The notes under the pieces: generated by a model | Told to the model about the DNA's origin: nothing | Database searches by the model: none | What the model saw: only the letters and a program-made list of their open reading frames with translations | Part shown: positions 28,054-35,216 of the stretch, in pieces | How the letters are laid out: each line of letters begins with the position of its first letter | Numbering within the stretch: the stretch's first letter is position 1 | Program-made: the position numbers and the translations under genes | From: Bacteroidota bacterium | GTDB lineage: Bacteria; Bacteroidota; Bacteroidia; Chitinophagales; Saprospiraceae | NCBI GenBank assembly: GCA_011321935.1 | Contig: DROJ01000092.1 | Span: 1-42,118 of the forward strand | DNA length: 42,118 nt | Direction: 5' to 3'

Positions 28054-30474
28054 ATGCCAACAAACAGGACATCCCTTTTTTCTTTTTTGAAAAAACACAA
28101 ATGGGGAGCAGCCATTTTGCTGGCCGTCCTTTTTCTGTTTTATTGGTTCTGCCTGCCCGACCCACTTTTCAAAGACCCTACCTGCCTTGTTTTGGAAGCC
28201 AATGACGGCAGCTTGCTCGGAGCGCAGATAGCTGCGGACGGGCAGTGGCGTTTCCCCCTCATCAAAGATGTTCCGCTGAAGTTTGAAAAAGCCATTTTGG
28301 CTTTTGAAGACAAACGTTTTTACTCCCATCCCGGCGTGGACTTGCTGGCATTGGGCAGGGCGTTCCGCCAAAATATAAAAAACGGAAAAGTGGTCAGCGG
28401 GGGCAGTACCTTGACCATGCAGGTCATCCGCTTGGCGAGGAAAGGGCAACGCAGGACGGTCTTTGAAAAAGCAATCGAAATGGTCTTGGCCACGAGGCTG
28501 GAACTGCGTTTTTCCAAAAAAGAAATTTTGGCGCTCTATGCCTCCTATGCCCCCTTCGGCGGCAATGTGGTGGGGCTGGAAACGGCCACTTGGAGGTACT
28601 TTGGCAAGCGGCCAAGCTCCCTTTCTTGGGCAGAGGCGGCCACCCTCGCAGTGCTGCCCAACAACCCCTCCATGATCCACCCCGCAAGGAACCGGGATGC
28701 ACTGAAAAGAAAAAGGAACCGCTTGCTCAAAAAACTTTTCGAGGAAGGAGTTTTTGATGAATTAAGCTATGAACTGGCGCTGGAAGAGCTGCTTCCCGGC
28801 AAGCCCCTCCCCCTTCCGAGGCTTGCCCCGCACCTGATGGACAGGGTGGCAAAAGAAAAAAAGAAGCAGCCCGAAATGGCCGGGAACAAAGTGCGGACAA
28901 CCATTGACAAAGCACTGCAAGAAAAGGTGAACCAACTGGTTGACCGCAAAAACAAGGCACTGAAAAACAACGAAATACACAACCTCGCAGCAATCATCAT
29001 CAATATTGAAAAAAACGAAGTCTTGGCCTATGTCGGCAATGCCCAAAACACGGGCGCCGAACACGGCAACTCGGTTGACATCATCACTGCCCCGCGCAGC
29101 ACGGGCAGCATCCTGAAACCTTTTCTTTATGCCATGATGATGCAGGAGGGAAAGCTGCTGCCCAAAAGCCTCGTCAACGACATACCCACCCAACTGAAAA
29201 GCTATCGGCCTGAAAATTACTCCAATACTTACGACGGCGTGGTGGCTGCCGACCGGGCACTTTCGAGGTCGCTGAACATCCCCTTCGTGCGGATGCTGCA
29301 AGAGTACAGCGTCGAGAAATTCCATTTTAATTTAAAAAAACTTGGCATCACGACTTTGCGCAATGCCCCCGTCCACTATGGCCTCACGTTGATACTCGGC
29401 GGCTCGGAAGCAACGCTTTGGGACTTGACCAGTATCTACGCGGGCATGTCCCGCAGGCTCTCCAATTTTTACCCAAACAATGGCTGGTACTCGGAAAGCG
29501 ATTTTACAAAACCGATTTTTTATATAAACCCCAAATCTGGTATTTCACAAAAAAAAGAGCTGTCGAAGGAAACCAAATACCTCACTGCCGATGCCATTTG
29601 GCTGACTTTCGAGGCCATGAAAAAAGTGGAGCGGCCCAACTCGCAAGGCGACTGGCAACGCTTTGAATCATCCCACCAGATTGCTTGGAAAACAGGTACG
29701 AGCTATGGCTTCCGCGATGCCTGGGCCATTGGCGTGACCCCAAAATATGCAGTCGGCGTATGGGCCGGCAATGCAGACGGAGAAGGCAGGTCGGGGCTGG
29801 TGGGCATCTATTCTGCCGCTCCTCTTTTGTTTGAAATATTCGACCTGCTGCCTACTTCGAGGTGGTTCGACCAGCCCTTTGATGCCATGAAGCAGGTGGC
29901 CGTTTGCCATCAGAGCGGCTATTTGGCAAAAGATATTTGTGAAGAAAAAGATACCATCTGGGCGGCCAAAAATGCCTTGAAGGCCCCTGCCTGCCCTTAC
30001 CACCGGTTGGTTCACCTCGACAAAAGCGAAAGTTTTCAGGTGAATAAAAATTGCGTTCCGCAAAATGAAATCACCGCCCGCCCCTGGTTTGTGCTGCCGC
30101 CTGTGGAGGAGTATTATTTTAAAATAAAACACCCCAACTACCGCAGCTTGCCCCCCGTAAGAGAGGGCTGCCAAACTGGCCAATCGGCCAATGCCAATCC
30201 CATGCAGTTGATCTATCCGGGCAACAACACAAAAATTTATGTGCCTACCGACCTTGACGGGAACGTGGGGCGGACTGTTTTCAAGGCAGCCCACCGCTTT
30301 GCAGGGGCAACGATCCATTGGCACATTGACAGGGAATACATCGGCAGCACTACGGACTTCCATAACATGGAACTCAACCCTCCTGCCGGACGGCATTCAT
30401 TGACCCTCGTGGATGACCGGGGCAACCGATTGATGCAAGCCTTTGAAATTTTATTGAAAGAAGGAGGGAAGTGA
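28054..30474 (+). CDS. pbpC: Penicillin-binding protein 1C
   Basis: ILAFEDKRFYSHPGVDLLALGRAFRQN...GGSTLTMQVIRLAR; transpeptidase STGSILKPFLYAMM and KTGTSYGFRDAWAIG; C-terminal BiPBP-like domain. Confidence 0.95.
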   Translation: MPTNRTSLFSFLKKHKWGAAILLAVLFLFYWFCLPDPLFKDPTCLVLEANDGSLLGAQIAADGQWRFPLIKDVPLKFEKAILAFEDKRFYSHPGVDLLALGRAFRQNIKNGKVVSGGSTLTMQVIRLARKGQRRTVFEKAIEMVLATRLELRFSKKEILALYASYAPFGGNVVGLETATWRYFGKRPSSLSWAEAATLAVLPNNPSMIHPARNRDALKRKRNRLLKKLFEEGVFDELSYELALEELLPGKPLPLPRLAPHLMDRVAKEKKKQPEMAGNKVRTTIDKALQEKVNQLVDRKNKALKNNEIHNLAAIIINIEKNEVLAYVGNAQNTGAEHGNSVDIITAPRSTGSILKPFLYAMMMQEGKLLPKSLVNDIPTQLKSYRPENYSNTYDGVVAADRALSRSLNIPFVRMLQEYSVEKFHFNLKKLGITTLRNAPVHYGLTLILGGSEATLWDLTSIYAGMSRRLSNFYPNNGWYSESDFTKPIFYINPKSGISQKKELSKETKYLTADAIWLTFEAMKKVERPNSQGDWQRFESSHQIAWKTGTSYGFRDAWAIGVTPKYAVGVWAGNADGEGRSGLVGIYSAAPLLFEIFDLLPTSRWFDQPFDAMKQVAVCHQSGYLAKDICEEKDTIWAAKNALKAPACPYHRLVHLDKSESFQVNKNCVPQNEITARPWFVLPPVEEYYFKIKHPNYRSLPPVREGCQTGQSANANPMQLIYPGNNTKIYVPTDLDGNVGRTVFKAAHRFAGATIHWHIDREYIGSTTDFHNMELNPPAGRHSLTLVDDRGNRLMQAFEILLKEGGK

Positions 30475-30584: not shown

Positions 30585-30657
30585 GTTTCACGCAAAGGCG
30601 CAAAGTTTCTAAACCAAATTTCTTTGAGACTTTGCGCCTTTGCGGCTTTGCGCGAGA
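30585..30657. repeat. Inverted repeat (CGCAAAGGCGCAAAG type)
   Basis: tttcacgcaaaggcgcaaagtttc versus gagactttgcgcctttgcggctttgcgcgaga. Confidence 0.8.
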
Positions 30658-30700
30658 CAAATAATTTGGCAACACTGAAAAAACCTTCCCTTTAGGGCAT

Positions 30701-30784
30701 AAAAAAACTCCTACATCGGGGAGGCTAAAAAGCTGACGTAGGAGCACTAAACATACTATGAGAAAACTACACAGTGCAAAGAAG
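30701..30784 (-). ncRNA. Putative short structured transcript, paralog 1 (ends in intrinsic terminator)
   Basis: - strand CTTCTTTG...GTAGTTTTCTCATAGTATGTTTAGTGCTCCTACGTCAGC...GATGTAGGAGTTTTTTT. Confidence 0.45.
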
Positions 30785-30819
30785 GGCCAATTTTAGGTGT
30801 AAAAAAAGCGGTGATTAGG

Positions 30820-30847
30820 AAACGGTAGGTCTTGAACCGTGAACGGT
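30820..30847 (-). promoter_or_regulatory. Candidate LytTR operator: two direct repeats 21 bp apart
   Basis: - strand cctACCGTTcac...cctACCGTTtcc; aaacgg at 30820 and gaacgg at 30841 on + strand. Confidence 0.5.
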
Positions 30848-31162
30848 AGGAAGTATTTAGGATGTGGATTTATCATTATGTGTTCTGCGCAAAATACCAC
30901 CAAAACCCCATAACCAACTGATTTTTAATTATTAAAAAATATATTTATTTTTAATAAAAAGAAAATCTGGCATAGAATTGGGCTAAGGCTTCGTGTTCTT
31001 CGATGATTTTCTTGCACCAACTCACACATTTTTCCATTTTCCTTCTTACAGTTCCCACATTTCAAAATTCCAGAACAAAGGCTTTCCTTCAATCGGCAAT
31101 CCGCTTTTTATAGTCGGAATAAAATTCGGTTTAAAAAAAATTTGAACGGGTCAAGAATGGGT

Positions 31163-31245
31163 AAAAAAAAAATTCCTACACCCCAGAAGGGAAGAAAAGG
31201 TGTAGGAGAATTAAACATACTATGAGAAAACTTAGGCCAAAGATA
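31163..31245 (-). ncRNA. Putative short structured transcript, paralog 2
   Basis: - strand TATCTTTGGCCTAAGTTTTCTCATAGTATGTTTAATTCTCCTACACCTTTTCTTCCCTTCTGGGGTGTAGGAATTTTTTTTT. Confidence 0.5.
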
Positions 31246-31300
31246 CACTTGGCTTTTACAGGAAAAAAGCTACTTTTACGCAATGGTTGATCTGGTGAGG

Positions 31301-31349
31301 AAACGGTAGGTATTCTTTAGGAAACGGTAGGTTTTGACTAATAAACGGA
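31301..31349 (-). promoter_or_regulatory. Candidate LytTR operator: three half-sites at exact 21-bp spacing
   Basis: + strand aaacgg at 31301, 31322 and 31343; - strand TCCGTTTAT / ACCGTTTCC / ACCGTTTCC. Confidence 0.55.
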
Positions 31350-31477
31350 AAAAATATGTTTAAAAATTAATTTTATTGGAAATACATAAATACCGGAGGG
31401 CTATTCATTTACGGAAGCACTAAACTTACTACATAAAACAGCTTTAAACTACACCGCCTTTTTGAGAAAACATTTTA

Positions 31478-31533
31478 GGGAGTTTGTAATAAATAACTTC
31501 GCCATAACGGGTAGGTTATTTATTACAAACTCC
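31478..31533. repeat. 20-bp perfect inverted repeat
   Basis: gggagtttgtaataaataac / gttatttattacaaactccc. Confidence 0.9.
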
Positions 31534-31550
31534 CTTAAATTTTGAGGGGA

Positions 31551-31634
31551 AAAAAAAGTCCTGCACCCCAGGAGGGAAAAATAAGGTGCAGGAAGATTAA
31601 ACAAACATACTATGAGAAAACTAGGGCAAAGATA
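31551..31634 (-). ncRNA. Putative short structured transcript, paralog 3
   Basis: - strand TATCTTTGCCCTAGTTTTCTCATAGTATGTTTGTTTAATCTTCCTGCACCTTATTTTTCCCTCCTGGGGTGCAGGACTTTTTTTT. Confidence 0.5.
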
Positions 31635-31731
31635 TTTTTTTATTTACAAATATTAAATTTTTATCATAAAAAAATACATGAAAGCCAGTTGATAAGGCAT
31701 ATGGTTTGTAAACATTCGTCTTTTGCGACCA

Positions 31732-33603
31732 TCATTTCACCTCGATGTCCAAAATAGGTATCAACACTTCCACTCTTGTCCCCGCAGCATTTCCCGTTTC
31801 CTCATCGTACAGGTCAATGATTTTGACGACCTCTTCCCCGTTGCTCTTTTTTTGCAGGATTTCCAACCTGTCTTTCGTTATCCTCGTTCCCATTGATTTG
31901 TGGCTTTTCAGTTCAGGGTTGTTTTCCTGTATTTTGCGGATTTTTTCCCTCCCCACCCCGTTGTCTTCAACAATACAAAGGATGGTGTCCTCGTCTTTCA
32001 ATTTAAACTCGATTTTTATCATGCCCTTTTGTTTTGGCCGGATGCCATGTTCGATTGAGTTCTCCACATAGGGCTGGACGATCATGGTCGGCACCCCATA
32101 AATGTCTTCTTCTATTTCCTCGTCCACGATGATTTTATAAGTGAGTTTACTTTCAAAACGCAGGTTCACGTTGATCTCGAGGTAATTGCGCAAAAACTCG
32201 ATTTCATCTTCCAGCGAAATGATCTCCATGTCTGAATACTCCAGGCTCTGCCGCATCAGATGGGCAAATTGGGCGAGGTATTTAGCGGCCAGTTTGGGGT
32301 CGTTTGAAGTAATGAAATCCTGCACGGAGTTGAGTGCGTTAAAAACAAAATGGGGGTTCATCTGCGCCCGCAATGCCTTTAGTTGCAGGCCTGTGGCCTG
32401 CAATTTGAACATCTCGGCTTCCTTTTCCTTGCGCTCGGCTTCGTACTTTATTTCCAGTTCCCTGATCTCGTCTTCCTTGACTTCCTGCATCGCCCTCTCC
32501 ACTGCTTTTTCGTAAAATTTCTGGTATTCATAGGCATCTTTGTATTCCCCGTCGGCTGCATAAAACTCAGAAATGTCTTTTAAAATACCTGCCACTTGGT
32601 TTTGGTCTTTGCCTTTGTAAGCAAATTCCAATGCACTGAAATAGTGCGTCAATGCCTTTTTCCGCTTGCCCAATGCCTCAAAAGCTTTGGCCTTCCACCA
32701 ATTGATATTGGCCTGGTTGACATCTTTTTTCTCTTTGAAAAGCGGGTAGGCAGTGTCCAAAAGGTCAAGCCCTTCCTGAAATTTTCCTTTCCGGAAATAG
32801 CAATAACCGAGGTTGGCATAAGCAAGGGCCCTTGCCTGCTGGTTCACATCGTCAAGCACCTTGATCCCCAATTTGAAATATTTGATGGCGTTTTCGTCAT
32901 CCAAGGTGGCCATGTAGCTGTTGCCGACATTGAGGTAGTGCCATGACAGCCTCGAACGCATGCCCCGCCGCTCACAGATTTCCACTACTTCCCGGTAAGC
33001 CTTTATGCTCTTGTCGGGTTCATGGTTGAGGGCATGTATTTTTCCGATCCCGCTTTTGATGAGGGTCATAAAATAATAGTCCTTGCTCGACAATGGCTTG
33101 GCCGAAGTTTTCAGCCTCATTTCTGCTTCCAAAAAAGATTTGAGTGCTTTGGGCTTGTTTGAATGCTGGATATGAAGGTAGCCGATCCGGCTGATAAGGT
33201 AGGCCTCCAACCGGTCGTCGGGAAAAGTCCTGAGGTATTTCCTCGCATCTTCAAGGTAAGCATAGGCACTGTCAACCTTTCCCAAATTTATGAGCGTTCC
33301 CGCATAATCAATAAACGCTTCGGCCAATTGGTTGGCATCGCCCCGTGCGTTCAGCAAATCAATGGCTTTTTTGAAATGGATTTCCGACAGCTTATAATTG
33401 TAAAGCTGGTTTTCGACGATGCCAGTATAAAGGTTGTATTTCAGTTCAAAGTCGAGGTCGGAGACTTCCTGTAGCAGCTTGTTGAGTTCGGCAAGATACT
33501 TTTGGGCTTGCTGGATATTGGTAAAAAGGTGCTGCATTGCCCGTTCGTCCAGCCTCGACAACTTTTTGATGCGGTCATCTATGATACCCGGTGAGTGATC
33601 CAT
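31732..33603 (-). CDS. TPR-containing LytS-type sensor histidine kinase, apparently soluble
   Basis: Multiple TPR-like repeats; LKALRAQMNPHFVFNALNSVQDFI (LytS-type phosphoacceptor box), VPTMIVQPYVENSIEHGI, ENDNGVGR-type ATPase motif; no visible TM or signal peptide. Confidence 0.9.
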   Translation of the reverse strand: MDHSPGIIDDRIKKLSRLDERAMQHLFTNIQQAQKYLAELNKLLQEVSDLDFELKYNLYTGIVENQLYNYKLSEIHFKKAIDLLNARGDANQLAEAFIDYAGTLINLGKVDSAYAYLEDARKYLRTFPDDRLEAYLISRIGYLHIQHSNKPKALKSFLEAEMRLKTSAKPLSSKDYYFMTLIKSGIGKIHALNHEPDKSIKAYREVVEICERRGMRSRLSWHYLNVGNSYMATLDDENAIKYFKLGIKVLDDVNQQARALAYANLGYCYFRKGKFQEGLDLLDTAYPLFKEKKDVNQANINWWKAKAFEALGKRKKALTHYFSALEFAYKGKDQNQVAGILKDISEFYAADGEYKDAYEYQKFYEKAVERAMQEVKEDEIRELEIKYEAERKEKEAEMFKLQATGLQLKALRAQMNPHFVFNALNSVQDFITSNDPKLAAKYLAQFAHLMRQSLEYSDMEIISLEDEIEFLRNYLEINVNLRFESKLTYKIIVDEEIEEDIYGVPTMIVQPYVENSIEHGIRPKQKGMIKIEFKLKDEDTILCIVEDNGVGREKIRKIQENNPELKSHKSMGTRITKDRLEILQKKSNGEEVVKIIDLYDEETGNAAGTRVEVLIPILDIEVK

Positions 33604-34400: not shown

Positions 34401-35216
34401 TTACAGTCCTTCTTCCAGCCTGCGCATCTGCTCCATGAAAGCAGGGCGGCGGCGCCTTGATACTTCGATTTTTTTCCCGTCGTCCATTATCAGGTAACCC
34501 CCATCGCCTTTAATGAACTTTCTCATATAGTTGAGGTTGATAACGTGCCGTTTGTGCACCCTGTAGAAGTTCACGCTGGCAAGCATGTCTTCATAGGCTT
34601 TGATGGTTTTTGAGGCCGTGATCCGTTCTTTGTTTTGCAGAAAAATATGGGTGTAATTGTCTTCTGCCTCAAAGCGCACAATGTCCTTGATGCTGACGAA
34701 ATAGATACCGTCAATGGCCGAAATGCTCATTTTTTCAAAAGCGTTCGGGTTTCTCAATTGCTTGTTGAAAATTTCGATCCGTTGCCCCATTTTTTCGGAA
34801 CGGGTCACCCGTACCCTGCTCACCGCTTGGATCAGTTCATCGGGGTCAATGGGTTTGAGGATGTAACCTATCGAGCTGTACTCACATGCTTTGATCGCAT
34901 GTTCGTTGTAGGCAGTAATGAATACGATTTCGAAATTGACGGGCCTAAGCTGGTCGAGCATTTTAAATACAAGGCCGTCGGGCAAGCTGATGTCGAGGAA
35001 GGCAATGTCGGGCTGAAAAGCCGGGTCTTCAAAGAGTTCGAGCGCCTCTTCAATGTTCAAAGCATCTCCAATAAGCTCAACTTCTGGACAATGTTTGCGA
35101 AGCAAGTTCTTGATGTTGTTCATGCTTCTAATCTCGTCTTCGACTATGATTGCCTTTACCACAGAAGTGCTTTTTGTACGTGTGATCGTTTTGATTGGTA
35201 CATGTTGTAAGACCAT
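34401..35216 (-). CDS. LytTR-family response regulator
   Basis: REC domain (VKAIIVEDEIRSMNNIKNLL...IAFLDISLPDG...YILKPIDPDEL) plus LytTR DNA-binding domain (IVRFEAEDNYTHIFLQ...FYRVHKRHVINLNYMRKF). Confidence 0.95.
   Translation of the reverse strand: MVLQHVPIKTITRTKSTSVVKAIIVEDEIRSMNNIKNLLRKHCPEVELIGDALNIEEALELFEDPAFQPDIAFLDISLPDGLVFKMLDQLRPVNFEIVFITAYNEHAIKACEYSSIGYILKPIDPDELIQAVSRVRVTRSEKMGQRIEIFNKQLRNPNAFEKMSISAIDGIYFVSIKDIVRFEAEDNYTHIFLQNKERITASKTIKAYEDMLASVNFYRVHKRHVINLNYMRKFIKGDGGYLIMDDGKKIEVSRRRRPAFMEQMRRLEEGL

Follow-up and report, generated by a model that had tools for sequence, protein, structure and literature searches.

To our knowledge, post-transcriptional control in the phylum Bacteroidota is almost unexplored beyond the gut Bacteroidales, and as far as we know Bacteroidota are without homologues of the classical RNA chaperones. 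A Saprospiraceae contig of 42,118 nt (DROJ01000092.1, analysed over its whole length and called the window here) raises the question of what is encoded by three similar short units on its minus strand, and on what their products might act. Each unit carries the block AGTTTTCTCATAGTATGTTT, which is present exactly three times in the window, always on the minus strand, followed by a GC-rich hairpin and then a T-run (Table 1), in agreement with the original prediction that had drawn attention to the locus. Some details of that prediction were corrected: the stem of unit 1, given there as CTCCTACACC/GGTGTAGG, is CTCCTACGTC/GATGTAGGAG and includes a G-U pair, and the -7 box TATCTTTG, placed 10–11 nt before units 2 and 3, precedes AGTTTTC by 4–5 nt in these two units. 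As the -7 boxes are found just before the block, the RNAs are predicted to start at or shortly before it, and to be approximately 65–70 nt long.

Table 1. Features of the sRNA cluster and its surroundings in the window. Covariance model (CM) R1 was built from 58 sequences that include the window units, and its bit scores are to be read accordingly.
Feature	Position	Strand	Evidence and remarks
sRNA unit 1 (type C)	30703..30768	-	Block 30749-30768; terminator hairpin CTCCTACGTC...GATGTAGGAG; T-run; CM R1 66.4 bits
sRNA unit 2 (type B)	31168..31232	-	Block 31213-31232; hairpin CCTACACC...GGTGTAGG; T-run; CM R1 79.2 bits
sRNA unit 3 (type A)	31553..31622	-	Block 31603-31622; hairpin CCTGCACC...GGTGCAGG; T-run; CM R1 72.9 bits
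Weak Bacteroidota -7-type box TTCTTTG, unit 1	30777..30783	-	Sequence reading; 8 nt upstream of AGTTTTC
-7 box TATCTTTG, unit 2	31238..31245	-	Sequence reading; TAnnTT-type box in 47/66 type B homologues
-7 box TATCTTTG, unit 3	31627..31634	-	Sequence reading
LytTR-type box TACCGTTTCCTAAT, upstream of unit 1	30814..30827	-	EM motif; window scoring
LytTR-type box 3 AACCATTGCGTAAA, unit 2, promoter-proximal	31275..31288	-	20 bp from box 2
LytTR-type box 2 TACCGTTTCCTCAC, unit 2	31295..31308	-	21 bp from box 1
LytTR-type box 1 TACCGTTTCCTAAA, unit 2	31316..31329	-	EM motif; window scoring
TPR and LytS-type histidine kinase (PF06580)	31732..33603	-	Pfam; directly upstream of the sRNA cluster
LytTR response regulator (PF00072 and PF04397), proposed controller of the sRNA promoters	34401..35216	-	Pfam; synteny
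PBP1C-type peptidoglycan glycosyltransferase, convergent neighbour	28054..30474	+	Pfam

The three window units are paralogues of one sRNA family that lies outside Rfam. The Rfam scan suggested by the original prediction returned no match on the units, either at the gathering score in the window or at E ≤ 10 in positions 30600–31720, with the low-scoring matches mostly on an AT-rich inverted repeat, and a literature search by sequence gave nothing relevant. The view that the units belong to no named RNA family therefore stands for Rfam membership, but it passes over FopS (RF04319) as a close functional parallel. The AT-rich inverted repeat itself (31469–31543, in the interval between units 2 and 3) is strong, with 29-nt arms that are 93% complementary, and attracts chance miRNA-family matches in Rfam; a further inverted repeat, CGCAAAGGCGCAAAG...CTTTGCGCCTTTGCG at 30591–30644, is REP-like and located shortly beyond the PBP1C gene.

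Searching the genome of origin with the covariance model gave four hits. The fourth genomic copy is on another contig (G000:C572:581-634, 47.4 bits), has a different hairpin and sits behind a uroporphyrinogen-synthase-like gene (assigned as hemD by eye from the ORF), with truncated tandem copies of a type D unit beside it (L040:1-48, 200-248 and 388-436, 21–25 bits). Some other block matches in this genome lack a terminator (L006 and L008 with three mismatches, L005 with two), and one (L007) is a leader site on the opposite strand. A degraded fourth copy had also been suspected within the window near 31412–31450, but this sequence scores 11.6 bits (E = 0.83) without a terminator, and was rejected as a working unit; the fragment at 31412–31440 resembles type C TAGTATGTTTAGTGCTCC without seed or terminator, and may be a fossil copy.

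In total, 239 matching sequences were gathered, of which almost all are from Saprospiraceae. The conserved 5′ block comprises 20 nt, and a T-run is present at the expected distance in 222/239 sequences, where block positions 3–19 are 98–100% identical; a stem abuts the T-run in 219/239, with 134 distinct stems. Of 101 related genomes, 39 contain the block with at most two mismatches, all of the window's own family, and the carriers include Phaeodactylibacter luteus and P. xiamenensis (Saprospiraceae), which as named strains may make the sRNAs testable in culture. Within 395 genomes of the class, the exact 15-nt core of the block is part of real units only in Saprospiraceae, with hairpin and T-run absent downstream in the matches inspected outside this family. 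A covariance-model search of relatives had been proposed, and the model found matches in 16 of 199 genomes of the order, again only in this family. The sRNAs are conserved in a part of the Saprospiraceae. Paralogues could be sorted into type A (TTTAATC-TTCCTGCACC), type B (AATTCTCCTACACC), type C (GTGT ahead of the block, GCTCCTACATC) and type D (TG start, GCCCCGG stems), and many Saprospiraceae genera have these types again in a matching gene neighbourhood; of the earlier reading as a locally amplified sRNA family, the sRNA family is strongly supported, but "locally amplified" is misleading given this recurrence.

The terminator hairpin was assessed in 58 diverse sequences aligned by sequence (MAFFT), with the stem placed by hand from the first row. 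All nine pairs of the 9-bp stem have changed on both sides, which was matched by 0/500 shuffles, and 96.5% of the stem cells are paired versus 80.3% in shuffles; when the stem partner was slid, at most 46% were paired. The compensatory changes first noticed between window stems are real, but they come down to a single pair (A-U to G-C, unit 2 versus unit 3), weak alone, and it is the 58 homologues that make the case decisive. Selection for RNA structure on this nine-pair intrinsic-terminator stem is strongly supported, and the earlier suggestion of such selection is borne out by the covariation together with the conserved promoter boxes and conserved terminators. The units are non-coding and have their own promoter (as read from the sequence), a terminator and a conserved structure, as expected for trans-encoded sRNAs.

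The region around the units is not otherwise empty, as had been thought, since it is bordered by genes for a LytS-type kinase and PBP1C and contains regulator-type boxes ahead of units 1 and 2. The motif TACCGTTTCCTAAA, obtained by expectation-maximisation (EM) seeded from a direct repeat in the window, was found in 171/202 non-redundant upstream regions versus 8.6% of shuffled regions, a comparison that denotes enrichment and not unbiased discovery, as the starting motif was picked by eye from the same sequences. At least two such sites are present in 114/202 upstream regions, with spacings of mainly 21, 42, 41 and 20 bp, and this agrees with LytTR sites being direct repeats mostly 12 bp apart, which with 9-bp repeats gives a 21-bp period (PMC6193735). 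The number of boxes differs between the window units, with three for unit 2, one for unit 1 and none detected upstream of unit 3 in the box scan of the window. In many genera a LytS-type kinase/LytTR regulator pair immediately precedes the units, which are convergent to PBP1C: the kinase is located ≤700 nt upstream in 41/101 unit clusters with enough flanking sequence and is not adjacent in the other 60, and PBP1C is convergent within 1.5 kb in 27/96 clusters. The neighbouring LytTR regulator would be the protein that binds the boxes. Boxes of the TACCGTTTCCTAAA type are present at other promoters too, so the sRNAs would belong to a wider regulon. Within the genus, tandem LytTR-type boxes precede other genes and intergenic promoters (L376-L392), for example (L377, L388 and L389) ahead of a conserved TATTATCATCTTTGCA promoter-like stretch.

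Possible partners of the block were sought through its complement, using ACATACTATGAGAAA with at most one mismatch in close genomes and RCATACTATGAGAAA as exact match in 101 relatives. The genus of the window and its neighbour G014 contain 21 exact sites outside same-orientation sRNA units, and 19 of these are in the leaders of giant HYR/cohesin-type secreted proteins; as the species are related, the number of independent events is far below 19. The remaining two are a type D-like unit read backwards, which is not a leader (G006:C137), and a site without clear context (G008:C52). No RCATACTATGAGAAA site was present in 40 genomes of other families, and a reversed-pattern control gave one site in 101 genomes. 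The genome of origin has an exact site in the leader of a HYR protein of approximately 1300 aa (G000:C437:3481; start MVKGNGFAP), and this leader 1 site is also exact in 12 other members of the genus. Some genus members carry exact sites in leader 2, belonging to the tandem second gene after the leader 1 gene, and in leader 3, which belongs to a third giant gene (start MKPEVTKPAFRRL and relatives) and has one internal mismatch in the genome of origin; leader 4 is that of G014. The proteins encoded behind these leaders contain HYR, cohesin, Ig-like and type IX sorting domains (Pfam). Beyond the genus, exact giant-leader complements were found in only three genomes, with many more carrying the sRNAs: besides G014, these are G029 (408 nt upstream of a 1225-aa giant gene) and G028 (1.5 kb upstream of a giant protein gene), whose proteins were judged similar by eye from the N-terminus and not by Pfam. 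The complements in G017 (no block at two mismatches) and G039 (one poor block match) are inside ORFs. Start codons were considered as main targets and rejected, with near-complements being few and mismatched.

As is typical of trans-encoded sRNAs, this complementarity is conserved and directed at mRNAs encoded elsewhere. Predicted duplexes with leaders 1 and 3 of the genome of origin reach -25.2 and -25.8 kcal/mol (z = -6.9 and -5.2, 0/200 shuffles), and the type B 5′ end pairs with the leaders at -18.8 to -34.2 kcal/mol, with 10/12 leaders beating all 200 shuffles; own leader 2 pairs weakly (4/200 shuffles). These energies describe the pairing and are no independent test, as the leaders were preselected for the site. 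Conservation of leader 1 runs past the complementary stretch, so this leader may be kept for another reason, and its consensus fold gave no covariation; the leader 3 site lies in or next to a predicted local hairpin whose stems differ. Two further sequences were noted in this search. The first, TTGGCACAATTTTTTAAATTA, is fully conserved upstream of leader 1 (L300:3380-3480, and at the same place in L301-L312), and contains TGGCAC, which resembles a sigma-54 -24 element, with no -12 GC. The second, ACATACTGTGAGAAAACCGCC, is a G-U variant of the seed complement that is found in several genomes just past the end of a small ORF and upstream of a repeated gene (L313, L314, L315, L324, L325 and L326); G006 and G007 hold two copies.

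Taken together, the units probably represent LytTR-controlled, multicopy, base-pairing sRNAs that regulate giant surface-protein mRNAs, where we infer transcription, LytTR control and pairing in the cell from the sequence features described above. They would be paralogous, independently transcribed trans-encoded sRNAs of approximately 65–70 nt, each starting near its -7 box with the unpaired 5′ block AGUUUUCUCAUAGUAUGUUU as seed and ending at the intrinsic terminator. Units 2 and 1 are most likely driven by the neighbouring LytS-type kinase and LytTR regulator via the TACCGTTTCCTAAA boxes spaced approximately 21 bp apart, and the seed would pair over 13–20 bp with sites in the long 5′ leaders of mRNAs for giant T9SS-secreted surface proteins of the HYR/cohesin type, thereby adjusting their output. 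Repression is the default expectation by analogy with FopS, with activation also possible, and leader refolding, RNA cleavage or transcription termination are candidates for the step from pairing to output. The sites are located far upstream of the predicted starts (approximately 160–600 nt, 1.5 kb in G028), which excludes start-codon occlusion in the FopS style, unless these starts were mispredicted or the leaders fold back onto the ribosome site. A single RRM_1 protein was found in the genome of origin (L269:147-518, 123 aa); it is RbpB-like with a glycine-rich tail and may assist, as RbpB does for FopS in Bacteroides. If the system works as proposed, multicopy sRNAs would link a sensor kinase to surface-protein display, and the covariance model and conserved leader sites yield direct predictions.

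The case for trans-acting base pairing is based on the extreme conservation of the unpaired block, the resemblance of this block to the FopS seed and the complements in leaders, and these favour it over the original suggestion of mini-transcripts that titrate a regulator, which is unsupported. Pairing could instead take place mainly at many mRNA start codons, as for FopS, with the giant leaders being minor targets or sponges. ATGAGAAAA occurs within the block's reverse complement, a conserved 112-aa protein has its start codon within ACATAATATGAGAAAG with one mismatch in five genomes (L316, L317, L336, L337 and L338), and near-complements are found at the starts of an OMP-like gene (L329) and a PorP/SprF-like gene (L330). 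We consider this unlikely, as the exact 15-nt complements in carriers are in leaders and not at start codons, whereas the start-codon cases have a mismatch and are mostly single occurrences. Slightly less likely still is that the RNAs are real but the block is chiefly a protein site, for example for an RRM protein that the RNAs sequester, with the leader sites being secondary. A nearly invariant 17-nt core exceeds what most seeds need, a single RRM_1 protein is available in the genome, and RbpB does bind the 5′ regions of FopS (PMC11697453), but a protein site would not predict complements placed in giant surface-protein leaders in several genera.

Readings in which the units are not regulatory RNAs of the minus strand fit the observations poorly. 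The position of the units in 3′ intergenic spacers and the truncated tandem copies near the fourth copy (L040) are what mere transcription terminators or a dispersed REP/MITE-like repeat might produce, but such elements would not be expected to have their own promoter boxes, an unpaired block with hardly any variation, stems that covary while being unrelated in sequence, a conserved order of types and neighbours, and a low copy number, making this explanation very improbable. The least probable reading places the meaning on the plus strand, where AAACATACT ATG AGA AAA CT would be a translation start for a small peptide preceded by a hairpin leader; ATGAGAAAACT does open plus-strand frames of approximately 12–18 codons in the window units, yet what follows the block on the plus strand is not the same in all copies and corresponds to the minus-strand promoter and box region, and the T-runs and -7 boxes fit the minus strand.

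The base-pairing sRNAs proposed here can be compared with three known arrangements. Streptococcal csRNAs (CiaR-controlled, RF02379) and the vibrio Qrr sRNAs also comprise several near-identical sRNAs under one two-component system, but their sequences are unrelated, and neither CiaR nor LuxO is a LytTR regulator; the RF02379 model gave a low match, far below cutoff, on the AT-rich hairpin at 31446–31527 and not on a unit. The RNAIII of Staphylococcus aureus is a single long mRNA/sRNA, whereas the window encodes multiple RNAs of 65–70 nt next to a kinase with TPR repeats. The two systems would have in common a LytTR regulator working through tandem direct repeats upstream of the promoter of a regulatory RNA, as AgrA acts at tandem direct repeats (PMC4227749).

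The closest parallel is FopS of the Bacteroidaceae (with GibS; RF04319), which consists of an antisense seed plus a terminator and has the 70% consensus GTGTTTTTCATAGTATTAGATTTAAGG (PMC11697453). Aligned to the type C 5′ end as GTTTT[C]TCATAGTAT, this consensus is identical at 14/15 positions with one gap, a score reached by 9/20000 shuffles of FopS, after which the sequences diverge. Both are multicopy paralogous sRNAs with a Bacteroidota -7-type promoter and a conserved unpaired 5′ seed followed by a Rho-independent terminator, and both have mRNAs of secreted or outer-membrane surface proteins as (here proposed) targets and an RRM protein present. The seed cores line up as GTTTT-TCATAGTAT apart from one inserted C. 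They differ in host (Bacteroidaceae versus Saprospiraceae), in the continuation of the seed (GTTT in the window family instead of TAGATTTAAGG), in the clustering of the window family beside a LytS/LytTR pair with tandem boxes, and in the location of the sites, as FopS represses susC-type mRNAs near the start codon and the exact complements here are in long leaders at least 160 nt upstream. The RF04319 model detects Bacteroidaceae-type loci at 69–78 bits (four loci from class genomes), and in the window nothing reached its gathering score of 56 bits, with no match up to E = 10 in 30600–31720; conversely, model R1 gave no match to FopS loci. In a search for FopS-like patterns across the class, genuine FopS was mostly confined to one family, with one further locus elsewhere, and most of the other matches were set aside as apparently antisense of ordinary starts or chance. 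By analogy, the window family is therefore best described as FopS-like in its presumed working and as a close functional parallel, and it is not filed as a FopS member. A more speculative reading, to which we give less than even credence, is that the seed GUUUU(C)UCAUAGUAU is ancient in Bacteroidota, with FopS and the Saprospiraceae family sharing common descent, and that in Saprospiraceae it was rewired to LytS/LytTR and to giant T9SS-secreted proteins via long 5′ leaders instead of start codons. If the sRNAs work as proposed, the FopS seed would be either older than, or converged upon beyond, the gut Bacteroides.
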